A stretch of DNA of 64,000 nt. It comes from Sphingobium scionense (GTDB lineage Bacteria; Pseudomonadota; Alphaproteobacteria; Sphingomonadales; Sphingomonadaceae). Position 1 is the first letter of the stretch, and every line of letters starts with the position of its first letter. This document shows positions 36,915 through 51,525 of the stretch, piece by piece. The position numbers and the translations under genes are program-made. Under the pieces are notes generated by a model that made no database searches, was not told where the DNA came from, and saw only the letters and a program-made list of their open reading frames with translations. Location of the stretch: the NCBI RefSeq assembly GCF_014197035.1, contig NZ_JACIEU010000006.1:186001-250000 (forward strand), read 5' to 3'.

Positions 36915-38078
36915 TCAAAGAAACGGGGTCAAGGTAAAACGAACCGATCGCGCCTGATCGTTCGTCGCAACCGATAGTGTAACGTCTTTCCCCGGAGCCC
37001 CCGTGATGCTCGCGATGGCCGCGCGGAAATCGAGGCCGGCAATCCGATCCCCGACCTGAATACCTGCCGCCGAAGCGGGGCTTCCCGTACCCACGACCGC
37101 GACACGAATTTCGTTCCCTTTGTTCTCCAGCCACAGACCCGACATCCCATAACGTTCCGGCAAAGGCGCGGCATCCGAATGACGTTGCAACCAAAGGGAG
37201 CGCGTCTTTACCTCCGTAGAGAGGTTGAAGCCGCGAAGCATCGTCAAGCCGACAATGCCGTCATGACTCCGCGCACCATCCGAGGGGCCGCGCAGCAGGA
37301 CCAGCGGTCGATCAAAATGTTGACCGGCGAACAGGGCATTGTTAGCCCGCACGATCCTGCCGATCCCACCGCTGCCGCCAATCCCGCTTGTCGCCTGCGG
37401 CGCAAAGGGTCTGGCATCATCCCACAGCCCGAGGCGGCGGGCATTGTCATAGCTGATCGAGATCGCGCCTGGCGCGCCGGTATCGAGCAGACATTCGAGC
37501 ACCATGCCGTTGACTTGTATATCGCCATAGAGGCGTGGCGATGCAGCGTTGCGGCCCAATGTACTGTCACTGCGGATTGCACGTTCCAGCTTCACAAAGC
37601 CGACACGTTCGGGACGACCATCCGGATAGGCTCGCCATTCGCCTGCTTCGATATCGAGATCACTATCGACGGTCGTCAGAATCCCTGCGGCCAATGACCC
37701 GCGCACACGAGGACCGAAACCTCCGTCTATGGCCGAAAGAGACACGACGGGTTGGCGCGCTCCGCCGCCGAATATGACGTCCCTTGCGGTGTAGCTGCCA
37801 AGCACTGCTTGCCCACCGACACCGCGCGTCCTGACCGAACCCGTCGATTGGAGCTTCAACTCGCGAGCGAGCTTCGCATCGATCAGGCTACCGGCCCCGC
37901 CTGTGTCCAGCAGAAACAGATATGGCCCATTGCCCGCAATCGTCACCGGCATCACTACGCGACCATCCAGAAGAGCGATCTTGCTGACGATCACACGCCC
38001 TTCCTGAGCGAGAACGGGCCTTGCCAGCCCCGCGATCAGGGTGAACGCAAATCCGCTCAAAACATCACGCCTTTGCAT
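36915..38078 (-). CDS. Secreted retropepsin-like aspartyl protease with PDZ domain
   Basis: 387 residues from the ATG at 38078. The N-terminus MQRRDVLSGFAFTLIAGLARPVLAQ has a signal peptide with RR. Two retroviral-type protease half-sites are present: YLFLLDTGGAGSLID at about residues 53-67 and LECLLDTGAPGAISI near 200. A C-terminal PDZ domain (VGTGSPASAAGIQVGDRIAGLDF) follows. Having two intact DTG motifs in one chain suggests an internal pseudo-dimer. A periplasmic or outer-membrane protease is likely; substrate unknown. A degenerate relative lies at 50602. Confidence 0.82.
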   Translation of the reverse strand: MQRRDVLSGFAFTLIAGLARPVLAQEGRVIVSKIALLDGRVVMPVTIAGNGPYLFLLDTGGAGSLIDAKLARELKLQSTGSVRTRGVGGQAVLGSYTARDVIFGGGARQPVVSLSAIDGGFGPRVRGSLAAGILTTVDSDLDIEAGEWRAYPDGRPERVGFVKLERAIRSDSTLGRNAASPRLYGDIQVNGMVLECLLDTGAPGAISISYDNARRLGLWDDARPFAPQATSGIGGSGGIGRIVRANNALFAGQHFDRPLVLLRGPSDGARSHDGIVGLTMLRGFNLSTEVKTRSLWLQRHSDAAPLPERYGMSGLWLENKGNEIRVAVVGTGSPASAAGIQVGDRIAGLDFRAAIASITGAPGKDVTLSVATNDQARSVRFTLTPFL

Positions 38079-38194
38079 GGCGGTCCGGTTTCCTTCCGTG
38101 CGAAATATAGGGCGTGCGCCAATGATCGATTGCCCCATGCGAGAAGATTTCGATCTGAGACCCAAGTCAACCCTGCTGAAGCAAAAGACTGGCC

Positions 38195-38965: not shown

Positions 38966-41900
38966 ATGGCGATTTTCCATTTCTCCGTTCAGGTCATTGG
39001 CCGCGCGCAAGGGCGCAGCGCCGTCGCGGCGGCGGCCTATCGTGCGGCCGAGCGCCTGCACGATGATCGGCTCGACCGCGACCATGACTTCACGAACAAG
39101 GCGGGCGTCGTCCATTCGGAAATCCTTTTGCCCGAAGGTGCGCCCGAACGCTTCTCGGATCGCGCGACTCTCTGGAATGAGGTCGAGGCAACCGAGAAGC
39201 GCAAGGATGCGCAGCTAGCGCGCGAAGTCGAGTTCGCTATTCCGCGCGAGATGAACCAGCCGCAGGGCGTCGCGCTCGCGCAGGATTTCGTGCGCGCCGA
39301 GTTTGTCGAGCGCGGCATGATCGCGGATTTGAATGTGCATTGGGACATCGGCGCGGACAAGCTGGCGAAGCCCCACGCCCATGTCATGCTCACCATGCGG
39401 GAAGTAGGCGAGGAAGGTTTCGGGCAGAAGGTCCGCGACTGGAACCGCACGGAATTGGTGGAGCAGTGGCGCGAGCGCTGGGCCGATCATGTCAACGTCC
39501 GCCTTGCCGAACTCGATATAGACGCGCGGATCGATCACCGCAGCCTTGAAGCCCAGGGCATCGAGCTTGAGCCGCAAGATAAGATCGGCCCCGCAGCGTC
39601 GCGCATGGGCGAGCGCGGCCTTGAGGCCGAGCGCATCGAGGATCACCGCGCCATCGCCGAGCGCAATGGCGATCGGATCATCGCCGATCCATCCGTGGCG
39701 CTCAACGCCATCACCCATCATCAGGCGACGTTCACGGGCCGCGACCTTGCGATGTTCATCCACCGGCACAGCGACGGCAAGGACCAATATGACCGTGCGA
39801 TGAGCGCCGTTCGTGCCTCGCCTGATCTTGTCGCCTTGGGTAAGGACGGGCGCGGCGACGATCGCTTTACGTCGCGTGACATGATCGAAACCGAGCAGCG
39901 GTTGCAGCGCGCCAGCGAATTGATGGCGGAGCGCGAACAGCATCGCACGGACGAGAAGTCGCGCGAGGCAGCATTGGTCAGCGCGGAGGGGCGCGGATTG
40001 TTGCTGTCTGGCGAACAGCGGGCAGCGTTCGAGCATGTGACCGGCGATCGGGATTTGAGCATCGTCGTTGGCTACGCAGGCACCGGCAAGAGCGCGATGC
40101 TGGGCGTTGCGCGGGAGGCATGGGAGCGGTCGGGGTTCGAGGTGCGCGGCGTAGCGTTATCGGGCATCGCGGCGGAGGGGCTGGAGAACGGTTCCGGCAT
40201 TGCGTCGCGCACCATCGCCAGCATGGAATATGGCTGGGCCAACGGGCGCGATATGCTCACGTCCCGCGATGTGCTGGTGATCGACGAGGCGGGCATGGTC
40301 GGCACGCGCCAAATGGAGCGCGTGCTGTCCCATGCAGAAGCGGCGGGCGCGAAGGTGGTGCTCGTCGGTGACGCCGAGCAGTTGCAGGCGATCGAGGCGG
40401 GCGCGGCGTTCCGCGCGATCCATGAGCGGCATGGTGGCGTAGAGATCACCGAAATCCGCCGCCAACATGAGGATTGGCAGAAAGACGCTACGCGCCATCT
40501 GGCGACCGGCAGGACCGGCGAAGCGATCCGGGCCTATGCCGATCACGGCATGGTCCACGCGGCCGAAACGCGAGAACAGGCGCGCGCGGACCTGATCGAC
40601 CGTTGGGACGCCGCACGGCAGGCCGAACCCGACAAGACGCGGATGATCTTCACCCACACCAATGACGAGGTGCGCACGCTCAACGAGATGGCGCGCGATC
40701 GGCGGCGTGAGGCGGGCGAACTGGGCGACGACGCCCGCGTGAAGACCGTCAACGGCGACCGGGATTTCGCATCCGGGGATCGCGTCATGTTCCGGCGCAA
40801 CGACCGCAGCATGGAAGTGAAGAACGGCACGCTTGGAACCATCGAGCGGGTCAACGAGCAGAACATGACGGTGCGCACCGATGACGGGCGCTCCGTATCG
40901 TTCGACCTCAAGGACTATCGCGACCTCGACCATGGCTATGCCGCCACGATTCACAAGACGCAGGCGGTGAGCGTCGATCGCACGCACGCGCTCACCACGC
41001 AGGGGATGGATCGGCACGGAACCTATGTCGTTCTCACCCGCCACCGGGACGGCGTGGACTTCCATTATGGGCGGGATGATTTCAAGGACGAGTCCCGGCT
41101 TATCCGCACCCTGTCCCGCGAGCGTGCCAAAGACATGGCGAGCGACTACCGCCAAGTCGATCCGGCCAAGGAGTTTGCCGAGCGGCGCGGCATCAGCTTT
41201 GGCGAGCGCGTCGCCGAGATCGTCAGGCCGATCGCGGAGAAGGCGCGCGGGATCTTCGACGGCTTGCGCCTCTCGCTGCCCGGTCAGGATCGCGCGCCAT
41301 CGCCCGCACCCGAGCGCGGTATGTTCGACGGTCTGGATCTTGGGCGCTTCGCTTCTGCGCCTGTCCATGATCCCGCGCGCCAGCAACAGCGCGATCACGA
41401 ACCGCAGCCGATGCGCGCAGGCGGATTGCGCGGTGCGGTCGAGCGCTACGCCAAGGCGCTCGACGCGATCCGGCAGACCCGCGCGCAGGGCATCGACCCC
41501 ATGCCCCACCAGCGCGAGGCGCTGGATAAGGCGCGCGACGCCCTCGACGCGATCCGGCCCGAAGGCTCGACGGACCTCAACAGCGCGTTCCGGGCAGGCC
41601 CGGAACTGATCCGCGAGGCGGCGGAAGGACGCGGCCATGAAGCGGTGCGCGCGATGCAGGCGGAGGCGGAAATCCGTATCGACCCCTTCCAGCGCGCGGA
41701 CCGCTTTGTCGAAGGTTGGCAGCAGTTGCAGCGCCAGCATCAGGAACTTGTGCGCGACGGCAACTTCCGGGCCGCGAAGACCACGGCGCAGCACATGGCC
41801 GACATGGCCAAAAGCCTTGAGCGCGATGCCCAGCTTGAATCGGTGCTGGGACTGCGCAGCCGCGAGCTTGGACTTGAGATCGGTCAGGACATGGGCCGCA

Positions 41901-41974
41901 GCATCGGTCGCGACCTCGCCGCTTCCATCCCCTTCGATCATGGCCGCGACATGAGCCGCGGCATGGAACGCTAG
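38966..41974 (+). CDS. traA: Ti-type conjugative relaxase TraA (MobQ relaxase fused to RecD-like helicase)
   Basis: 1002 residues. The relaxase domain (about residues 1-230) begins MAIFHFSVQVIGRAQGRSAV and has the metal-binding histidines in HWDIGADKLAKPHAHVMLTM. The helicase part (about 340-740) has Walker A VVGYAGTGKSAMLG, Walker B VLVIDEAGMVG, GDAEQLQAIEAG, and the late motif HGYAATIHKTQAVSVDR. The C-terminal 260 residues are helical. It nicks oriT, binds the 5' end and unwinds the strand for transfer. No T4SS or coupling-protein gene is present, so the element can at best be mobilised. Confidence 0.93.
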   Translation: MAIFHFSVQVIGRAQGRSAVAAAAYRAAERLHDDRLDRDHDFTNKAGVVHSEILLPEGAPERFSDRATLWNEVEATEKRKDAQLAREVEFAIPREMNQPQGVALAQDFVRAEFVERGMIADLNVHWDIGADKLAKPHAHVMLTMREVGEEGFGQKVRDWNRTELVEQWRERWADHVNVRLAELDIDARIDHRSLEAQGIELEPQDKIGPAASRMGERGLEAERIEDHRAIAERNGDRIIADPSVALNAITHHQATFTGRDLAMFIHRHSDGKDQYDRAMSAVRASPDLVALGKDGRGDDRFTSRDMIETEQRLQRASELMAEREQHRTDEKSREAALVSAEGRGLLLSGEQRAAFEHVTGDRDLSIVVGYAGTGKSAMLGVAREAWERSGFEVRGVALSGIAAEGLENGSGIASRTIASMEYGWANGRDMLTSRDVLVIDEAGMVGTRQMERVLSHAEAAGAKVVLVGDAEQLQAIEAGAAFRAIHERHGGVEITEIRRQHEDWQKDATRHLATGRTGEAIRAYADHGMVHAAETREQARADLIDRWDAARQAEPDKTRMIFTHTNDEVRTLNEMARDRRREAGELGDDARVKTVNGDRDFASGDRVMFRRNDRSMEVKNGTLGTIERVNEQNMTVRTDDGRSVSFDLKDYRDLDHGYAATIHKTQAVSVDRTHALTTQGMDRHGTYVVLTRHRDGVDFHYGRDDFKDESRLIRTLSRERAKDMASDYRQVDPAKEFAERRGISFGERVAEIVRPIAEKARGIFDGLRLSLPGQDRAPSPAPERGMFDGLDLGRFASAPVHDPARQQQRDHEPQPMRAGGLRGAVERYAKALDAIRQTRAQGIDPMPHQREALDKARDALDAIRPEGSTDLNSAFRAGPELIREAAEGRGHEAVRAMQAEAEIRIDPFQRADRFVEGWQQLQRQHQELVRDGNFRAAKTTAQHMADMAKSLERDAQLESVLGLRSRELGLEIGQDMGRSIGRDLAASIPFDHGRDMSRGMER

Positions 41975-41992
41975 ACCAAAGGAGAAAGACGC

Positions 41993-42742
41993 ATGGACCA
42001 CCAATCCCTGTTGAACGGTCCTGAATCCCAGCAACCGACCGGCACGGCGGCGGAGGCGTTCGCGCGCCTGGCGGCGCGCGTGGAGGCGATGGAACAGCGG
42101 CTTGACGGGCGCTTGGCGGTAATCGCCCGAGCGCTTGAGCATATCGCCGTTGAGAAGCAGAGCATCGAGGTTCCCGACTACAATCCGACGCTCGCCAAGA
42201 TTAACGCCAACATCGCCGAGTTCGCCAAGCACATGAAGGCGCTTTCGCAGTCCGAGGCGCTCAACATGACCCCGGAGAGCATGGCGGAACGGATCATAGC
42301 ATCAGCGGAGGCGGCGCGGGAGACGGACAAGGCATCCATCAAACAGGCGCAGGCGCTGCTCCGCGAAGCTCATGTCGAACAGATGAAAGCTATCGGCGCG
42401 ATCCGCACCAAGGACCGGCAACGCCGGCACTTGGTCTACACCGGCATAGGCACGGCGCTGGCAGTATCGCTTCTGTGGCTGTTCTATCCGGGATGGGCGG
42501 CCAATGTCGGGCCGCAAGGTTGGCTTTGGCCGGAACGGGTGGCCGCCCGCACGTTAGGCGAGGCATCCCTATGGGATGCCGGGATCCGTCTAATGCGCGC
42601 TGGGAACCCGAAACGCTGGCAGGCGATCGTGGATGCCGCTGATATGCGGCAGGAGAACAGAGAAGCCATCGGGGCTTGCGAACGAGCAGCCACCAAGGCC
42701 GAAAAGCGGGTGCGATGCGCCATCAGTGTCAGAAGGCCCTAA
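41993..42742 (+). CDS. DUF6118 family membrane protein
   Basis: 249 residues. N-terminal coiled-coil region (AARVEAMEQRLDGRLAVIARAL), one membrane helix near residues 150-168 (YTGIGTALAVSLLWLFYPGW), then the family tail WPERVAARTLGEASLWDAG and WQAIVDAADMRQENREAI. Strong AAGGAGAAAG precedes the ATG. It is 18 bases after traA and surely in its transcript; DUF6118 genes commonly follow relaxase genes in sphingomonad elements. Role in transfer unknown. Confidence 0.82.
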   Translation: MDHQSLLNGPESQQPTGTAAEAFARLAARVEAMEQRLDGRLAVIARALEHIAVEKQSIEVPDYNPTLAKINANIAEFAKHMKALSQSEALNMTPESMAERIIASAEAARETDKASIKQAQALLREAHVEQMKAIGAIRTKDRQRRHLVYTGIGTALAVSLLWLFYPGWAANVGPQGWLWPERVAARTLGEASLWDAGIRLMRAGNPKRWQAIVDAADMRQENREAIGACERAATKAEKRVRCAISVRRP

Positions 42743-42938: not shown

Positions 42939-45035
42939 CTAATTGTCGCAAATCAAACTTCCGTCTTCCATAATATAAATCCGATCAGCAGAGTTTATTG
43001 TTTCCGTTCTGTGCGCTATAATTATGCGCGTTATACCCAATCTCTTAATTGCTTGATTGACCTGCATTTCGCGAACTAAGTCAAGATGAGCAGTCCCCTC
43101 ATCAATCAGTAGAATTTTCGGATTCCGATAAAGAGCCCTAGCGAGGATAATGCGTTGTTTTTGCCCGCCAGAAAGAGTTGACCCAAGTTCACTCACTTGA
43201 GTATCATATTTCATAGGCATCGCCATGATATCATCGTGAATAGCTGCATCTTGGGCGACAGAATGGACCCGATCAATATCCATAATTTCTTCAAATAACG
43301 CTATATTACTCGCAATTGTTCCAGAAAATAGATTATCATTCTGAGATATTACAGAAATTTGTTGATGAAAGCTTCTTATGCCAAATTCCTCCATCGGCTC
43401 CCCATCAATAAGTATGCTTCCTTGAGTTGGTTTTTCAATGCCACCGATTAATTTTAGTAATGTTGACTTCCCACTCCCTGACGCACCAGTTAGTGCAACA
43501 TGATCTCCAGGAAACACTTCCATACTAATGTTTCTCAATACTAAATTATCACCCGATGAATAGCGAAACGAAACATTGTCTACGGTTATACCTCCCTTTA
43601 ATTCACGATCTGCGCTTCGACCATTAAAGGCCCAATCCTCTTCCCCTTTTACAATATCCGAAAGGCGGTCCAAGTGCAGGCCGAGCATTTTGAACGAGAT
43701 ATACTGATCCACAAGTAGAAAAATGCGAGAAATGAACATCTGTTTATAGGCAATGAAAGCAAATGTCATGCCAATTGTCATGTCACCGCGACTAATCATG
43801 ATGACAGAGATGAAAATTATCAATATATCTTGCAAAGCCATAATAAGGCTGCAGAGTGATGATTCCCAGTTCTGAATTCGTGCTGTTCTGATGTCACCAT
43901 TCAGCGCATCGACCATCTTCGCTTGCCAAGCAGAAAAGCGCTTAGTTTCAGCACCGAATAAACGTAGACTCAAAATTCCTCGTATGGATTCAATTAAAAA
44001 ACTCTGCTCACGACCATGAGAAACGATAGACTCTTGCTTTGCCTCACGCGCATACCGAAAAAATATAATCCTTGTAAATACGTAAGTTAATATAGCCAAT
44101 AACGCAATTAACGTCATCAGCGTATTATAGAAAAACATCAATATCATTACCGAAATAGAAAATATTCCATCAATAATTGATATAATACCTTTCTCTAATA
44201 TTAACTGCTGAATAGGCTGAATAGACGAAAAACGGGATAAAATATCACCAAGATGCCTGCGCTCGAACCACGAAATCGGCAGCCTGAATAGCTTTCTAAC
44301 TGTATTTGACGCGATGGAGAGGTTGGCTTGCGAGGAAGCCGTAAGAATTGTGAACGATCGGAGCCAGCCAGCAGCAACTCCCACTACGCTGATGATGCCG
44401 AATCCAGCCGCAAGAGCCAACAGAAAATCTACACTTTGTATTGAAATAGTATTATCCAAAGCGACCTGCATGAAATACGGGGTCGCGATCGAGGCAATCT
44501 GTATTATGAGCGTCATGGTTAGAACCTGCACAATAACGCTCAGTATTCCGCCCATTCCTGAAAAAAGCTCACGTATACGTAAGGTATTAGCGGTTGGCAA
44601 AGGCTCTTGCTTTTCGCTGCTGGGCCGCAATTCCAAGGCTATGCCGGAGAAATGCAGTGACAAGTCATTCCAGCTGTACCACCGGCTGTGGCCGTCCGGG
44701 TTGTGGATCATGACGCCCCGGGAAGATGCCCGCTCAGCCACAACGAAATGCTTCAAATTCCAGTGCAAGATTGCCGGAAACGTGAGCAAACGCAATTCGT
44801 CGAGTGGAACCTTCAGTGCCCGGGGCAGGAAACCGATTTGATCCGCAATCGACATCAGTTTCGCAATATTGGTTCCCCGATGAGAAGGCGGGAAACGCCG
44901 TCTGAGGTCTTGAAGTGCTTGCCCTCTTCCATGGTAATTTGCCACCATCGCTAAGCAAGCCAAGCCGCATTCCGCCAGCTCAATCTGCCTAACCATTCGG
45001 ACGCTGCGACGCCTAAAAAAATGAAGATCTAGCAT
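42939..45035 (-). CDS. Peptidase-containing ABC exporter (C39 bacteriocin-type)
   Basis: 698 residues from the ATG at 45035; another in-frame ATG at 45071 would overlap the hlyD-like gene. The N-terminal C39 peptidase has all catalytic residues: Gln17, Cys23 (AECGLACLAM), His96 (WNLKHFVV) and Asp114 (HNPDG). Then six membrane segments (about residues 155-430) and an ATPase with Walker A TGASGSGKSTLLKL, signature LSGGQKQRIILARAL, Walker B ILLIDEG and H-loop IIAHRTE. Such proteins cut the leader after Gly-Gly and export the peptide. It serves the precursor at 47477. The coding is AT-rich, unlike the backbone. Confidence 0.93.
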   Translation of the reverse strand: MLDLHFFRRRSVRMVRQIELAECGLACLAMVANYHGRGQALQDLRRRFPPSHRGTNIAKLMSIADQIGFLPRALKVPLDELRLLTFPAILHWNLKHFVVAERASSRGVMIHNPDGHSRWYSWNDLSLHFSGIALELRPSSEKQEPLPTANTLRIRELFSGMGGILSVIVQVLTMTLIIQIASIATPYFMQVALDNTISIQSVDFLLALAAGFGIISVVGVAAGWLRSFTILTASSQANLSIASNTVRKLFRLPISWFERRHLGDILSRFSSIQPIQQLILEKGIISIIDGIFSISVMILMFFYNTLMTLIALLAILTYVFTRIIFFRYAREAKQESIVSHGREQSFLIESIRGILSLRLFGAETKRFSAWQAKMVDALNGDIRTARIQNWESSLCSLIMALQDILIIFISVIMISRGDMTIGMTFAFIAYKQMFISRIFLLVDQYISFKMLGLHLDRLSDIVKGEEDWAFNGRSADRELKGGITVDNVSFRYSSGDNLVLRNISMEVFPGDHVALTGASGSGKSTLLKLIGGIEKPTQGSILIDGEPMEEFGIRSFHQQISVISQNDNLFSGTIASNIALFEEIMDIDRVHSVAQDAAIHDDIMAMPMKYDTQVSELGSTLSGGQKQRIILARALYRNPKILLIDEGTAHLDLVREMQVNQAIKRLGITRIIIAHRTETINSADRIYIMEDGSLICDN

Positions 45036-45040
45036 TTCGC

Positions 45041-46243
45041 CTACAGCCGCTCGTAACCAGAGAACATCCATCTAATCATCCGGCGTCGCTCAACCTCAAT
45101 GGAAGCCTTCAGCGTCATTCCTGGAATAAGTCGCAGGGCCTCATTGCCTTTCTTGCGGTAGAATCTGACTCGCACCTTATAGGCCGACATTTGATCGGAT
45201 GGGGAGGCTTTCACGGGAGCCCCAGCCACCTCACTAATCACGCCGACCAGCATCCCGTACTGACTTTTCGGGAAAGCGTCGATTGCAAGCTCGACAGGCA
45301 TCCCAACCCGAATGGATCCTATAGCGGAAGGAGAAACATTTAATTCCGCTTCCAGAGCAGAGTTACGCGGGTAGAGACTCGCTATTTCCTGACCGGCGAC
45401 GATGGAACTCCCCAACCCCAAATCCAATGCGGCAATGGTACCAGATGCGGGTGCCCTTACTAGATAAGAGCGAAGGCCCATCGTCTGAGATATCGCCTCC
45501 GAAATTTGATTGCGTCTAAGAGAGATGGCCGCCTGATTAGATTTCGAGGTTGCGAGAAGCAAATCAAGCTCCTGCTTTTCCTGAAATAACTCGCTACGCT
45601 TTTGATCCCGTTGATCAATGATTTCATCAAGCGCAATCTGTTTCGTCGCGAGGGTATCTCTTCGATCATTAACATCTCTTACACTAATAAATCCCCTGTC
45701 TACGACATCTGCGATTCTCTGAAGATCATCCTCAGATCTTTTCACCAAATCCGTATAAAGGGACGCCCGCCGGTCCAAGCTCGTTATCTCTCTTGCTAAG
45801 GCCTCCATCCTTGCCTTAGCCCGATTAATTTGAGCCTTCTCCGCCTTTCGACTTTCCTCAACCTGACTATCAAGATCGGAATCTTGGTCACTAAGTGATT
45901 TCAAGACAAGTGTTTCAGAGGTGTCATATTGAGATATTGATCGTTCCACCCTCACTTCGGCTATTATGTCACCGGAGTTGACGGTCTGGCCCTGTTTAAC
46001 AAAAATCTTGGCGACGGAACCCATGGCATCCGCTCTCAAACTGATTAGGCCACCAGCGGGAACGATTTTGCCTGTTGCCGTTTCCGATCTCACATGGAAT
46101 GCGATCGAAAGAGCCAAAATGGCCAAAAGCATTAAGGATGCCAGGAAAAATCCGAATATCTGCCACGATACCGGCGTTGCGAGAAATGGCTTCCCTGAAA
46201 TGTCGGCACTTCTATTTTGAACTACTTCTTTACGAAATAGCAC
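45041..46243 (-). CDS. HlyD-family membrane fusion protein
   Basis: 400 residues. A short cytosolic N-terminus, one membrane helix (PVSWQIFGFFLASLMLLAILAL at about residues 24-45), a biotinyl-lipoyl-like half (GGLISLRADAMGSVAKIFVKQGQTVNSGDIIAEV), a long coiled coil (about residues 110-260), and the second half-site with APASGTIAALDLGLGSSIVAGQEI, ending in MTLKASIEVERRRMIRWMFSGY. It links the inner-membrane ABC exporter to an outer-membrane channel (a TolC-type protein must come from elsewhere). Its stop lies six bases from the exporter start. Confidence 0.9.
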   Translation of the reverse strand: MLFRKEVVQNRSADISGKPFLATPVSWQIFGFFLASLMLLAILALSIAFHVRSETATGKIVPAGGLISLRADAMGSVAKIFVKQGQTVNSGDIIAEVRVERSISQYDTSETLVLKSLSDQDSDLDSQVEESRKAEKAQINRAKARMEALAREITSLDRRASLYTDLVKRSEDDLQRIADVVDRGFISVRDVNDRRDTLATKQIALDEIIDQRDQKRSELFQEKQELDLLLATSKSNQAAISLRRNQISEAISQTMGLRSYLVRAPASGTIAALDLGLGSSIVAGQEIASLYPRNSALEAELNVSPSAIGSIRVGMPVELAIDAFPKSQYGMLVGVISEVAGAPVKASPSDQMSAYKVRVRFYRKKGNEALRLIPGMTLKASIEVERRRMIRWMFSGYERL

Positions 46244-46279
46244 GAGAAACGCCTCTTATAAATGAAACATATGCCATAA

Positions 46280-47419
46280 CTAGACAGCACCTAACTCAAT
46301 AACCGGTCGTTCCCCAACATATTTTATGCTATTTGTTAATTCGGTGTCGATGAACGATCGTAATAATTCATTGGGTGCCACGTCCTGCAAGCGCAACTTT
46401 GGCCTATGGTTGCGAGGCAATTGGAATTTCGGATCGCGAGACATCAGGAAATGGCAGAATGTATCCAAAAGGGGAATTTCCGGGCAGTATGCTTCTACCC
46501 AGAAAAAATTCCCCATCGGATTAAGATCTACGAACCACCATTGTCCCTGATCATCCACGATGAAGTCTATAGAACCAAAAACGAGGTTCAACTTTTTGAA
46601 CATAATTGATACCGCAATGTTGATTGCGTCGGGGATATCGCAGCGCTCCATCCCTAAATCCGTCCAATCCGGCGTTCGTCGGAAATCAACTTCAGTGTCA
46701 TCCCCGGGCCTATGCACGAACCGCCCGGCGAGCGAATAGCCGCCCATTTTAGTTAGTCGCACTTCATAAGATTTGGGAATGCGAGCTTGATAAATAGCGG
46801 GGCAAGCTTCTATTTCCGAAGCTTCGACATCCCGTATCGTTACAATTTCCGTACCAGTTGTTAGTCCGCTTCCGGATGATTGACAATACCAGACAGGAAT
46901 GAAGAAACCTTTTACGATTGTTTGTCGATCATTATCCGTATTAAGATTGATGAAATCAATAATTTTATCGCGGGAATTACTTATCAATGTCGGTGGAATT
47001 TTTAAACCACTGGCTGTTGCGATATCAAGATGGAGAGGCTTCGCACTATGTTCCAGCGCCGATCGGGGATCGTTGATGTGAAAACCGCCCGATAGCTCTG
47101 TTTGTAGCCATATCGATTCCACTAGGCTTTTCCAGCTAAGTTCTGCGTACCGACGGTCATCCTCATGAACGGCGTCGCCTAAAACCGGACGCCCCATGCG
47201 CCTTAGCCATATAGTGTCAAATTCCGTCAAATTGAGGCTGCCCGCGCTCGATTCATAGATGATCGAATTTCGTCCACAGTTGGAGTCATGCGATATGGAT
47301 GCGCGTTGCGGAATTTCAGTTAAGAATATTTTATTCATAGGTTGATTTAGAGCTTTTAAGCCAAGTTCTACATAGATTGCGTGCGCATCACCTGGCACAC
47401 TCACGATGAGTATCGACAT
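46280..47419 (-). CDS. ATP-grasp peptide ligase, MvdD-type graspetide synthetase
   Basis: 379 residues. The ATG at 47419 (MSILIVSVPGD) is chosen over one nine codons upstream, which would lie within the palindrome. The pre-ATP-grasp part has FDTIWLRRMGRP, close to the W-x-RR motif of MvdC/MvdD enzymes, then INDPRSALEHSAKPLHLDIA and SGLKIPPTLISN. The ATP-grasp part has YEVRLTKMGG, GSIDFIVDDQGQWWFVDLNP with the metal-binding Asp and Asn-Pro, and NFFWVEAY. These enzymes activate Asp/Glu side chains with ATP and join them to Ser/Thr (esters) or Lys (amides) of a precursor. It lies directly downstream of the precursor gene. Confidence 0.85.
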   Translation of the reverse strand: MSILIVSVPGDAHAIYVELGLKALNQPMNKIFLTEIPQRASISHDSNCGRNSIIYESSAGSLNLTEFDTIWLRRMGRPVLGDAVHEDDRRYAELSWKSLVESIWLQTELSGGFHINDPRSALEHSAKPLHLDIATASGLKIPPTLISNSRDKIIDFINLNTDNDRQTIVKGFFIPVWYCQSSGSGLTTGTEIVTIRDVEASEIEACPAIYQARIPKSYEVRLTKMGGYSLAGRFVHRPGDDTEVDFRRTPDWTDLGMERCDIPDAINIAVSIMFKKLNLVFGSIDFIVDDQGQWWFVDLNPMGNFFWVEAYCPEIPLLDTFCHFLMSRDPKFQLPRNHRPKLRLQDVAPNELLRSFIDTELTNSIKYVGERPVIELGAV

Positions 47420-47439
47420 AGCTCTAAACCAATTGATGG

Positions 47440-47469
47440 AGCCCATCAGCCACTAGTGGCTGATGGGCT
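47440..47469 (-). promoter_or_regulatory. Perfect 30-base palindrome between precursor and synthetase genes
   Basis: Arms AGCCCATCAGCCACT and AGTGGCTGATGGGCT meet without a spacer. In RNA they form a stem of about 13 pairs with a tetraloop, starting 7 bases after the precursor stop. No T-run follows, so it is more likely a partial terminator or 3'-end stabiliser than a full stop, letting precursor mRNA exceed synthetase mRNA. Confidence 0.7.
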
Positions 47470-47476
47470 GAATATT

Positions 47477-47626
47477 TTAATAGTCGAAACGTGTTTCTGT
47501 ATCTCCATTCGGACCGATATTGGTCGCTATTGGAGTTTCACTAGGAGCACCGCCAGCAACAATTGCTGCTTCTTCCGGAGTAAGTTCACGGGCCTTCGTG
47601 CGGTTGATGGTACGCTTTTTCTGCAT
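47477..47626 (-). CDS. RiPP precursor peptide with double-glycine leader (putative graspetide precursor)
   Basis: 49 residues, too short for routine gene calling. The ATG at 47626 follows an excellent CCAAGGAGAT. The leader, MQKKRTINRTKARELTPEE then AAIVAGG, has the hydrophobic spacing and Gly-Gly end recognised by C39 peptidases. Cleavage would free a 23-residue core that begins APSETPIATN and ends GDTETRFDY. The core has no Cys or Lys but several Ser/Thr and four Asp/Glu, which suits ester formation by the adjacent ATP-grasp enzyme. It lacks the microviridin leader motif PFFARFL. The function of the product is unknown. Confidence 0.85.
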   Translation of the reverse strand: MQKKRTINRTKARELTPEEAAIVAGGAPSETPIATNIGPNGDTETRFDY

Positions 47627-47657
47627 AACAATCTCCTTGGTTCAGGCAGGGAAATTA

Positions 47658-47686
47658 ATTGTTGCGGCCGAGCAAGGGGCTGTCAA
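47658..47686 (-). promoter_or_regulatory. Promoter of the precursor gene
   Basis: On the minus strand a perfect TTGACA (47681-47686) is followed after 17 bases by AACAAT (47658-47663). Transcription would begin near 47651, about 25 bases before the start codon. A second TTGACA lies 16 bases upstream (47697-47702). Confidence 0.6.
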
Positions 47687-47936: not shown

Positions 47937-48878
47937 ATGGGAAATTTCCGAGCGATGGTTGTCCTAACTGGGCGTGGGTTATCCGCGTTGCTTGTCGGCC
48001 TTGTCGCCGCTTGCTCGTTTACGAGTTCCTACGCGGCGACCACAGGAGACTTTGAAGGCAACTGGGTCGTGAGAGCGCACTGTCGCGCCCTGATGTCTCT
48101 GACGCTCCACAGGGATGGTGGATCAGGTAATTTGGTTGGCGTGTTTCGCCGTCCGGCCAAGATGAGTTTGTCGGTGGGGCCGATCATTAGCAACCCTTCT
48201 GGCTCCCCGACCAAGTTGGCTGTAAAATCGAGCCGATTTGAGAATGACAGGCTGTTTGTGGATATTGAAAACCGGCGTGATCCGAAGAAAGTTGATACGT
48301 ACATTCTGACGAAGCTGGGTCATGATGGATTGCTTATGGAAATTCAGGGCGCGCCGGTTGGACTTTTTCCTTTGATGCGCAGCAACTCGGGAATTGATCT
48401 GGCGCAGGATTGGGCCCCGGATATTAGCGTGCGACCCGATACGCCGTTCGCGTCAAATGAGGATTTGAAAAAGATTTTTGATGAGGATCAGGCTTTGCGA
48501 ACAGGGCAGGACTCTAAAGATTGGAAGCAGATTGCTAAAAGCGACAAAGTTCGCCGCCAGGCGGTGATGAAGTTGCTGCAAGAAGGCGACCTAAAAACCG
48601 GTCAAGACTATGAGCGTGCCGCGATTATATATCAGCATGGAGAGACATCCGACGACTTTCTAATGTCTCATTCCTTGGCACTTGCTGCACTGTCGAAGGG
48701 CGCCCCGTCTGCGGTCTGGATAGCAACCGCGTCGATGGATCGATACCTCGAGTCTATCGGTCGGCCACAGATTTACGGTACGCAGTCGGTCGTACAAGCC
48801 TCCCCCGCACCGGATACAGTCGCACCTTTGCCGCAGGCATTACGAAAGGATCTCGCGCTGCCGGAGTCGCGCCCTTGA
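47937..48878 (+). CDS. Secreted DUF6624-like protein
   Basis: 313 residues from the ATG at 47937, which follows GGAGGAAG; upstream in-frame starts would spoil the signal peptide. The signal VLTGRGLSALLVGLVAACSFTSSYA ends near residue 33. The next 110 residues look like a small beta domain (FEGNWVVRAHCRALMSLTLH). The last part (DQALRTGQDSKDWKQIAKSD, YERAAIIYQHGETSDDFLMSHSLALAALS, PQIYGTQ) matches the pattern of DUF6624 proteins as I recall it. Divergent from the peptide locus. Role unknown; it could be an immunity or surface factor, but nothing proves this. Confidence 0.6.
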   Translation: MGNFRAMVVLTGRGLSALLVGLVAACSFTSSYAATTGDFEGNWVVRAHCRALMSLTLHRDGGSGNLVGVFRRPAKMSLSVGPIISNPSGSPTKLAVKSSRFENDRLFVDIENRRDPKKVDTYILTKLGHDGLLMEIQGAPVGLFPLMRSNSGIDLAQDWAPDISVRPDTPFASNEDLKKIFDEDQALRTGQDSKDWKQIAKSDKVRRQAVMKLLQEGDLKTGQDYERAAIIYQHGETSDDFLMSHSLALAALSKGAPSAVWIATASMDRYLESIGRPQIYGTQSVVQASPAPDTVAPLPQALRKDLALPESRP

Positions 48879-49372
48879 AATCTGAATTCGAGAAGGCATT
48901 TTCTGAGGCGGAAAGTCGAAGCTTTCCGCCCTTTCTACCCACTGCACAAGAAAGTACACCGTTCAATTCCACCCCCTACGTTACGAATATCGCAGCCATA
49001 AAGGCCGGAGCAGCGCTCGCGGATCGCGCGGAGTTGATGGAACGTTTCGTAGAAACGGTGGAAGGCCTGCCAGATATCGCGATTCGACCCGTATTTGCGC
49101 TGTTAGGAGGCAGTGCGATTGGCCCTAAAATCGATCCCAACGACCTAGATTGTGTTGTATTTTATGAAGCGATTGAAGGCTTCAATGCGGGTGCAATACC
49201 TGATTTTCAGAAGCTCTCACGTCTGAGAAGGATCGATTTACGACTTATTCCTTGGGACACCGACCCTATCCTTGCTGCAAAAGCACTATCCTATTTTAGC
49301 ACTCTTTATGTAAAAAATCGAAATGAATTAAATATTGTGCGCGGATTAGTGATCGTTGACGTCAGGCAATAA
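48875..49372 (+). CDS. Nucleotidyltransferase-fold small protein (DUF6932-like)
   Basis: 165 residues from a TTG at 48875 that overlaps the preceding stop (TTGA), implying translational coupling. The central FALLGGSAIGPKIDPNDLDCVVFYEAIEG has the GGS and D-x-D spacing of nucleotidyltransferase-fold proteins, and RRIDLRLIPWDTDP supplies a third acidic strand. The rest is helical. Such proteins may nucleotidylate proteins or RNA or act as antitoxins; which is unclear. The linkage to a secreted protein is odd. Confidence 0.6.
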   Translation: MKSEFEKAFSEAESRSFPPFLPTAQESTPFNSTPYVTNIAAIKAGAALADRAELMERFVETVEGLPDIAIRPVFALLGGSAIGPKIDPNDLDCVVFYEAIEGFNAGAIPDFQKLSRLRRIDLRLIPWDTDPILAAKALSYFSTLYVKNRNELNIVRGLVIVDVRQ

Positions 49373-49373
49373 A

Positions 49374-50159
49374 TTAATTTTGTCGCAATATTCGTTCAAT
49401 TATGCTGGACATAGATATGAAATATGAAATCAACGGCGTCCATCTTCCAAATATTTCCGCTTCTCTGAGACTCAGTTCGTAACCCCCGGTAGCCATATTG
49501 GAAAATATCTTTAGTGGAATATAGAAATTATCAGACGCACCGGAATATTGCATCGTCAAGTTGAATAGAATTCGGCCAACTCGACCATTTCCGTCATGGA
49601 ATGGGTGAGAATTCACAAGAATTGCTTGAGAAATGATCGCCTTTCGTAGACCAATTCCTCCACCCATGCAGTAATTCTTAATATTTATTATTGATGATAT
49701 TATGTTATCTGCGGATGGATAGAATACCCTATTCCCATATGCATCTGGCGCAGTATTTACATCTGTTTTCCTAAAGTCCCCGTACTTATTATCTGTCAAA
49801 GCAAGATTTATCTCTTTTAGTAGTAAGATGAAGTACGTAACATCTTCGCTATCGACAGCAAATTTGAACTTTTTGAGCAGTCCTGTACACACTAGACGCT
49901 CCCGTTGCCATAAGTTCTCATGAGGCGTAGAAATTATCTGCTGTTCATTCCAATGGCTCGATAGCGGATGCAGCAATTTCTTACACATCTTCGGATCAGA
50001 CAAAATGCGTTCGGCTACTCGTTCGGTCGCCCTATCAATCAAGCTCGATGCCTGGAGGGATTGATTGGCAACTGAAAGTTGAGCTTCAACTAACGCTAAT
50101 TTCGAATGGCTTGGTTCGGTCAGTGGTGTGCGCCGCTTGTTAAAAGTCATATCCTTCAT
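49374..50159 (-). CDS. Fic domain protein
   Basis: 261 residues from the ATG at 50159. The complete Fic signature NSHPFHDGNGRVGRILFNL is at about residues 187-205, with the flap region upstream (APDAYGNRVFYPSADNI). Fic proteins transfer AMP or other phosphate-containing groups to hydroxyl side chains. I do not see a clear inhibitory S/T-x-x-x-E-G/N helix at either end. The N-terminal 120 residues are a helical extension of the type in larger Fic proteins. Convergent with the nucleotidyltransferase gene, one base apart. AT-rich and recently acquired in appearance. Confidence 0.85.
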   Translation of the reverse strand: MKDMTFNKRRTPLTEPSHSKLALVEAQLSVANQSLQASSLIDRATERVAERILSDPKMCKKLLHPLSSHWNEQQIISTPHENLWQRERLVCTGLLKKFKFAVDSEDVTYFILLLKEINLALTDNKYGDFRKTDVNTAPDAYGNRVFYPSADNIISSIINIKNYCMGGGIGLRKAIISQAILVNSHPFHDGNGRVGRILFNLTMQYSGASDNFYIPLKIFSNMATGGYELSLREAEIFGRWTPLISYFISMSSIIERILRQN

Positions 50160-50601: not shown

Positions 50602-51525
50602 TCAGCGAGCTGGGGCAGAACGCAGATACGGAACGACCACCAACTTTCCGGCCTTGATATCAAGGACGAAATCAGTGTTCAGAAGGAAGCCGAACCCAAG
50701 CCGCCCATCAGCCTCTTGGTTCGGAGCATCAGGAACGACGCGGACCGCAACATTCTCACGGCGTAGGCGGCCTAAAGTCACGGCAGGAAGAACGCCGCGA
50801 TCAACCAGAAACGGCTGACCGTCCAGCCCCGCGACTGTGGTCTGCGTAAGCATTTGATTCTTCGGAGCGATACGATCCCAGACACGACGGGAAATGGACA
50901 TCATCCCATTATCGCCCAAGTCCAGAACAAGATTCAGAGTTTGCGCCCCAATTGTGACGGCAACCGTGGGTCTGTTGCCGATTAAGGGGACCACAGGAAA
51001 TGCCGGAGGCAGCGTGATCCCACCTCCCGGCCCGAGGCGGAAGCTATTTTTACTTCCCTGAAATATCAGAGCTAGGGAGCGCAGGTAGTCTGCCCCAAAA
51101 ATAGCGTCGATTCTGCGATTTTCAGCACTGAGAACGTGAGATAGGTCTGCGACGGCGATCGCTCCCGCATTTATATCAACGACGCCAGGAACAGAAAATG
51201 CTACGTCCCGAACAACGCGCTTTGGGACAGATCTATGGACGGTGGTAATCACTCCGTCGCGCTGCTCTATCTCCCGACCAAGCCGTTCGACGAAAGAACT
51301 GTCGATCACGCTGGGGAATGCGCCATTATCAATCATGACCAAGGCATCCTGCCCCGCCAGCTTCGCGCGGAAAAGTATATGTCCATCAACAATTTCGACG
51401 GGCGCGGGAGCCTGGTCCGGCTTGGCAGGGAATTTAATTTCCACTGAGTATGATTGCTGTTCGTCAGTGCCTGGTGGATTGGCGCCTTGCGGAAGGGCGG
51501 CGGCAAGTATCAAAGCGATAAGCAC
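50602..51525 (-). CDS. Secreted retropepsin-fold protein with degenerate active sites
   Basis: 307 residues. Signal peptide MLIALILAAALPQGA. Two protease-like half-domains can be aligned with the gene at 36915: FRAKLAGQDALVMIDNGAFPSVID at about residues 53-76 and LNLVLDLGDNGMMSISRRVW near 195. In each the D-T-G triad is altered (DNG and DLG); the Asp remains. The C-terminal LLNTDFVLDIKAGKLVVVPY is the usual last strand. It may be inactive or have unusual chemistry. No PDZ domain follows. Monocistronic near the right border of the accessory region. Confidence 0.7.
   Translation of the reverse strand: MLIALILAAALPQGANPPGTDEQQSYSVEIKFPAKPDQAPAPVEIVDGHILFRAKLAGQDALVMIDNGAFPSVIDSSFVERLGREIEQRDGVITTVHRSVPKRVVRDVAFSVPGVVDINAGAIAVADLSHVLSAENRRIDAIFGADYLRSLALIFQGSKNSFRLGPGGGITLPPAFPVVPLIGNRPTVAVTIGAQTLNLVLDLGDNGMMSISRRVWDRIAPKNQMLTQTTVAGLDGQPFLVDRGVLPAVTLGRLRRENVAVRVVPDAPNQEADGRLGFGFLLNTDFVLDIKAGKLVVVPYLRSAPAR

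Follow-up and report, generated by a model that had tools for sequence, protein, structure and literature searches.

Graspetides are ribosomally synthesized and post-translationally modified peptides (RiPPs) that are cross-linked by ATP-grasp ligases, and according to a survey from 2026, 21,584 of them have been predicted (PMC13097080). That survey lists thatisin as graspetide group 16, marked by proline isomerism, and rosaritide as group 21, in which the ligase MirB falls under TIGR04187 and the exporter MirD is a PCAT of TIGR03796; PCAT-type exporters are frequent in several groups, group 16 included. According to a further study, very different cores occur under shared leaders, about half of the precursors carry a GG motif, and some graspetide branches have gammaproteobacterial members from Xanthomonas and Lysobacter (PMC8939145); the terms "sphingomon" and "alphaproteobacteria" do not occur in its main text. 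A sphingomonad graspetide was not found in the open-licence literature from 2020 to 2026, which is weak evidence of absence, as subscription papers lie mostly outside it. Here, we describe a graspetide-type operon in a 64,000-nucleotide stretch of Sphingobium scionense DNA (contig NZ_JACIEU010000006.1, positions 186,001 to 250,000), hereafter termed the window.

On the minus strand, from position 47626 down to 42939, the operon comprises genes for a precursor, an ATP-grasp ligase, an HlyD adaptor and an exporter in which a C39 peptidase is joined to an ATP-binding cassette (ABC) transporter. The gaps are short or the genes overlap, and all four reading frames are intact across 4.7 kb. Open reading frames (ORFs) and domain searches bear out this arrangement, which had been proposed in a reading of the sequence alone, hereafter the sequence-only reading. 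We consider it very probable that the locus is a horizontally acquired graspetide operon that makes, cross-links, cuts and exports a small peptide.

The precursor gene (47477-47626) encodes 49 amino acids. As noted in the sequence-only reading, its leader of 26 residues (47549..47626) ends in V-A-G-G, and it is followed by the 23-residue core APSETPIATNIGPNGDTETRFDY and the stop codon (47477..47548), delimited by the ORF and by comparison to THATGPNGDD cores. We assembled a leader profile from 21 equal-length leaders, which were picked by pattern from small ORFs of related loci with the window left out, and scored it against 12,414 ORFs from the window region and 95 relative loci (4 duplicates). 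Because the window precursor obtained E=4e-7 while lying outside the training set, the small gene is, judged by its sequence, not a chance ORF. All 40 ORFs with E<=0.005 are located on the same strand as an ATP-grasp gene and less than 1 kb from it; 19 of them lie outside the training set, and three of these 19 share their leader with a training sequence. Since the loci were gathered by their ATP-grasp gene, this biased census shows that the leaders are homologous and lie close to the ligase in operons, but not that they are confined to such operons. Among the 92 non-duplicate loci, the window counted, a leader-type precursor is present in 32, a C39 exporter in 26, C39 together with HlyD in 22, and precursor, C39 and HlyD in 15, all of which are lower bounds given the uneven length of the flanks; in 60 of the 92 a leader-type precursor is lacking.

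The leader consensus of the relatives reads [LF][AG]R..AREL[ST].EE....[SA]GG, and the window leader I-N-R-T-K-A-R-E-L-T-P-E-E-A-A-I-V-A-G-G appears by its sequence as a divergent form of this leader, which is common to many proteobacterial loci. The precursor lacks both the microviridin motif PFFARFL and a TTxxxxEE repeat, as had been stated before. In a Nostoc microviridin leader (L143), PFFARFL is likewise followed by a GG site, and in our comparison F-A-R in RPFARxxAREL appears to be its counterpart. Small ORFs adjoining Rhodanobacteraceae ligases (L122 6739-6888, L123 6757-6921, L130 6566-6757) begin with a FAR-type leader and have no GG; a C39 exporter was not found within the available stretch of these loci.

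The ligase, which was called as an ORF at 46280-47446, contains W-x-RR and VDLNP, in agreement with the W-x-RR and D-x-x-NP motifs reported earlier. Both the tree and the predicted fold place it among peptide macrocyclases, away from RimK-type ligases, and we therefore discarded an identity as a non-peptide ligase; matches to PDB sequences likewise point to the macrocyclases. The sequence-only reading had named two sequence-based observations that would speak against it, a ligase clustering with non-peptide ligases and the lack of a conserved precursor in homologous loci; neither was made, as the ligase clusters with the macrocyclases and a GG-leader precursor is conserved in such loci. The ligase forms an orphan branch with an end branch length of 1.49 in this quick tree with long branches. 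The earlier suggestion of an undescribed group is thus upheld in part: the orphan branch speaks for it, while the leader diverges from a shared type and the core looks thatisin-like. In contrast to the microviridin loci of group 1 (MvdC/MvdD, MdnB/MdnC), the window has no lactam Lys and one ligase instead of two, which stands on a separate branch, across a split with SH-aLRT 99 from MvdC/MvdD; membership in that group was rejected on account of this position and the missing PFFARFL. With rosaritide the window shares the best family labels of both ligase and exporter, but a peptidylprolyl isomerase partner is required there, and the domain searches showed no such gene in the window operon.

Between the precursor stop and the ligase, the minus strand contains a perfect hairpin of 13 bp (47440..47469), with z -5.35 and none of 200 shuffles equally stable; a repeat over different bounds, using 60 shuffles, gave z -3.0. 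We folded the 110 nt 3′ of the precursor stop at 28 chosen places, namely the window and 27 relatives. As a rough measure, 9 or more opening pairs followed one another without a break ahead of a loop at 19 of the 28 places, and z <= -2.5 was obtained at 13, indicating that a stem after the precursor stop is common. The hairpin probably tunes expression of the precursor versus the downstream enzyme. The called ATG of the ligase (47446) is located within the hairpin. As the alignment to MdnC begins at Met10 of the ORF, the start is probably at 47419, yielding a ligase of 379 aa (46280..47419). Its assignment as an ATP-grasp ligase draws on NCBIfam, PDB sequences, the tree, and the structure model with fold search. 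Upstream of the precursor, a Shine-Dalgarno-like AAGGAG read from the sequence (47633..47638) lies 6 nt 5′ of the ATG, preceded by a promoter-like site (47686-47658); comparable sites are only about twice as common as in shuffles.

The HlyD-family periplasmic adaptor (400 aa, 45041..46243) matches PF13437 (2.5e-16) and TIGR01843 (7.4e-35, under its cut-off). The exporter (710 aa, 42939..45071) matches PF03412, PF00664 and PF00005 as well as full-length PCAT1, and hence has the architecture of a PCAT, with a C39 domain in one protein with the membrane and ATPase parts of an ABC transporter. Its start may be the second Met, Met13 (45035). The earlier statement that all C39 residues are kept holds for Gln, Cys and His (29, 35 and 108 of the ORF; 17, 23 and 96 counted from Met13) and fails for the catalytic Asp. 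In this column (124; 112 from Met13) the window has Asn, whereas the other 28 of 29 aligned C39 domains have Asp, as do the solved LahT and PCAT1 domains; the Cys-His-Asp triad of a PCAT is therefore incomplete. The residue named previously, Asp114, is two positions off and corresponds to the residue after the Pro that follows the catalytic column. In papain-type proteases Asn acts in the role of the catalytic Asp, which makes cutting by the window domain plausible, though not assured. By its sequence the exporter is a PCAT of uncertain protease activity. Matches of the exporter to mad3, mad8 and AriA in PADLOC were set aside, as they are located in the ATPase part.

In graspetides the donors typically stand N-terminal to the acceptors, and in pre-fuscimiditide a Thr7-Asp18 link lies within a Thr3-Asp22 link (PMC12291112). 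The window core fits the order of Ser/Thr/Lys donors before Asp/Glu acceptors: S3, T5 and T9 precede D16, E18 and D22, and T17 and T19 stand among the acids. As it contains neither Lys nor Cys, links between side chains could only be esters, and an amide could be formed only via the N-terminal amine. T5/T9 and E18/D22 show the i, i+4 spacing of pre-fuscimiditide, and by this analogy we predict rings T9-E18 within T5-D22. Our guess is thus two nested side-chain esters, an outer Thr5-Asp22 and an inner Thr9-Glu18 (or Asp16), round an I-G-P-N-G turn. The spacing T-x3-T...[DE]-x3-[DE] is found in 5 of 8 THAT cores and in 1 of 16 other cores. Fuscimiditide itself, a stem-loop with two esters, has a Thr-x3-Thr and an acidic-x3-Asp spacing (PMC12291112), but both acceptors are Asp there and the window would need one Glu. 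Fuscimiditide is actinobacterial and is accompanied by a methyltransferase.

Taken together, these features suggest the following pathway. The ligase would bind the leader in its I-N-R-T-K-A-R-E-L region, phosphorylate Asp/Glu side chains of the core and esterify these with Thr/Ser hydroxyls. The C39 domain would then cut after Gly25-Gly26, and the ABC transporter and HlyD, presumably via a chromosomal outer-membrane channel, would secrete the peptide. For its role, competition between bacteria is a prior guess.

The core raises the question whether the locus truly belongs to the thatisin group, its core being lengthened, and is not a separate lineage, which we regard as rather unlikely. Cores of the THATGPNGDD type, which we take to be thatisin, are present in six Lysobacter/Luteimonas loci (L102, L112, L115, L119, L128 and L140) with eight precursors, one of which has GLNGDD. 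The operon parts are the same in both, with a GG leader R-[PL]-[LF]-[AG]-R-x-x-A-R-E-L...GG, ATP-grasp ligase, HlyD and C39-ABC, and both cores share A-T and G-P-N-G-D, aligning as ETPIATNIGPNGD / DTTHAT--GPNGD. GPNGD was found in 11 of the 12,414 ORFs, 8 of which are THAT-type precursors with the window counted. Against single THAT cores, shuffling gave p of 0.007-0.016 for six of eight, 0.03 for L112 and 0.25 for one L140 core, compared to 0.07-0.94 for 15 cores besides the THAT set and L105, and 0.04 for L105. Against a profile of the eight THAT cores, 20 of 20,000 shuffled window cores scored above the original. However, when the same profile was run against all ORFs, the window obtained E=3.7 and rank 13, with 4 non-training ORFs above it. 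Moreover, the DDPGDP tail is missing, the leader has I-N-R, and the tree keeps the ligase apart from the six THAT ligases; forcing them together costs 28 log-likelihood units, with p-AU 0.108. As the ligases do not group and yet the grouping is not rejected, the likeness of the cores reflects either an old shared motif or convergence. In an alphaproteobacterial metagenome-assembled genome, the ORF just 5′ of the ligase (L062 6634-6945, plus strand) has TTPNRDDPTDPG, near the thatisin tail; HlyD and C39-ABC are on the opposite strand there.

Several observations weigh against a working graspetide operon. The ligase matches NCBIfam TIGR04187 and MvdC/MvdD under the curated cut-offs, and no relative exceeds 36% identity. 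The leader has I-N-R and is without the usual L/F-A/G-R element; its positions -12, -7 and -4 are Leu, Ala and Val, where PCAT leaders are mostly hydrophobic (PMC10885120), Ala at -7 being the weak point. Shuffled cores show the T-x3-T...[DE]-x3-[DE] spacing in 4.0% of cases, and an immunity gene was not recognised within the operon. At the metal site, the window ligase has Asp (codon 46526-46528) where 95 of 96 ligases have Glu, and this unique Asp, like the unique Asn of the C39 domain, could lower or abolish activity. The two changes, each confined to one sequence (1 of 96 ligases, 1 of 29 domains), together with the long end branch, could point to an imported locus in decay, with frames still open, ligase and protease active sites drifted and no mature peptide. 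We deem this quite improbable, as the four frames are intact, the profile still recognises the leader, the hairpin is a perfect stem, and both changes are conservative, with the papain-type precedent for Asn. Alternatively, the locus might export an unmodified double-glycine bacteriocin or microcin beside an unrelated RimK-like ATP-grasp ligase acting on small-molecule or protein substrates. C39-ABC and HlyD proteins export unmodified microcins too, and the exporter DNA resembles mchF/cvaB genes over a short length; but both the tree and the fold of the ligase argue for a graspetide macrocyclase over RimK, and leader-type precursors adjoin such ligases in the 32 loci counted above, which renders this explanation extremely unlikely. 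The proposal that the locus encodes a graspetide RiPP along with a dedicated exporter has thus withstood the sequence comparisons, apart from a C39 site that is not fully intact.

Relatives are scattered and distant. A single-protein scan of genome contigs confirmed no relative among 104 stretches, whereas an alignment scan confirmed 173 of 205, of which 80 were used. The best identity, 36%, covers only part of the ligase. Whole-genome scans, whose sets overlap and each count the genome itself, found relatives in 8/61 genomes of the relatives set, 8/94 of the genus, 18/396 of the order, 4/385 of the class and 9/398 of the phylum; the genome itself has a single such ligase and a single such precursor. 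The best relative in the genus (L149; 29%, E 1.2e-34) combines, on one strand, a small ORF of the leader type (E 6e-4) with HlyD, C39-ABC and ATP-grasp. A plasmid locus of Legionella adelaidensis (L141) likewise groups small ORFs that end in GG with ATP-grasp, HlyD and C39-ABC in a single run, but with three small precursors and one extra gene without a phmmer match to the window ligase. A multi-precursor locus from the same order as the window (L033 5872-9389) contains two ATP-grasp genes and four small ORFs of the leader type, of which two have a C-E-[ST]-C-I-T-C core.

The GC content is 41-49% at 43-48 kb and 42-57% up to 52 kb, compared to 56-67% at 24-43 kb and 61-69% past 52 kb; as it is low beyond the operon, the imported stretch probably includes adjoining genes. 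This low GC, the hairpin and the Glu-to-Asp change had all been overlooked in the sequence-only reading. Directly adjoining the operon, a Ti-type TraA relaxase (NF010464) is followed by a DUF6118 gene (38966-42742, plus strand), suggesting an integrated mobile element. Among the matches listed, its nearest counterparts are traA genes on Sphingobium, Sphingomonas and Sphingopyxis plasmids, consistent with the sphingomonad origin assumed earlier. A search for the locus in plasmid DNA returned 375 records, none covering at least 80%, and among the matches listed (20 plasmid records) a 3% patch of the exporter genes aligned. With respect to a carrier plasmid, the matches listed contain TraA and small pieces only, and two more records of at least 99% identity were counted. 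No tRNA that could mark an insertion site is present in the 64-kb window, and the contig further left looks chromosomal, judged from translations. Clan-AA aspartic protease genes (PF13650) flank the operon at 36915-38165 and 50602-51525, both on the minus strand. In the low-GC stretch, a DUF6932 gene (48875-49372, plus strand; weak PADLOC match to PDC-M63A, 3.4e-4) faces a Fic gene (49374-50159, minus strand; PADLOC SoFic, 1.8e-13).

Judged by sequence, the operon is probably a working, divergent member of a known and widespread kind of system. It is possible, if doubtful, that it represents a lineage long separated from the others, whose leader and ligase drifted in concert, with Asp as metal ligand, a papain-like Cys-His-Asn C39 protease and an undescribed ring pattern; I-N-R replaces L/F-A/G-R, and the ligase helix matching the MdnC leader site is without the usual acidic residues. 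If so, leader and enzyme would constitute a pair orthogonal to the known ones. With a 49-aa precursor, one ligase and its own exporter, the operon is compact and self-contained, which makes it testable by simple co-expression. It also bears on the ability of a distant enzyme to make a thatisin-like core and, with uncommon residues in two active sites and a drifted leader, offers a natural test of what graspetide ligases and C39 proteases tolerate.

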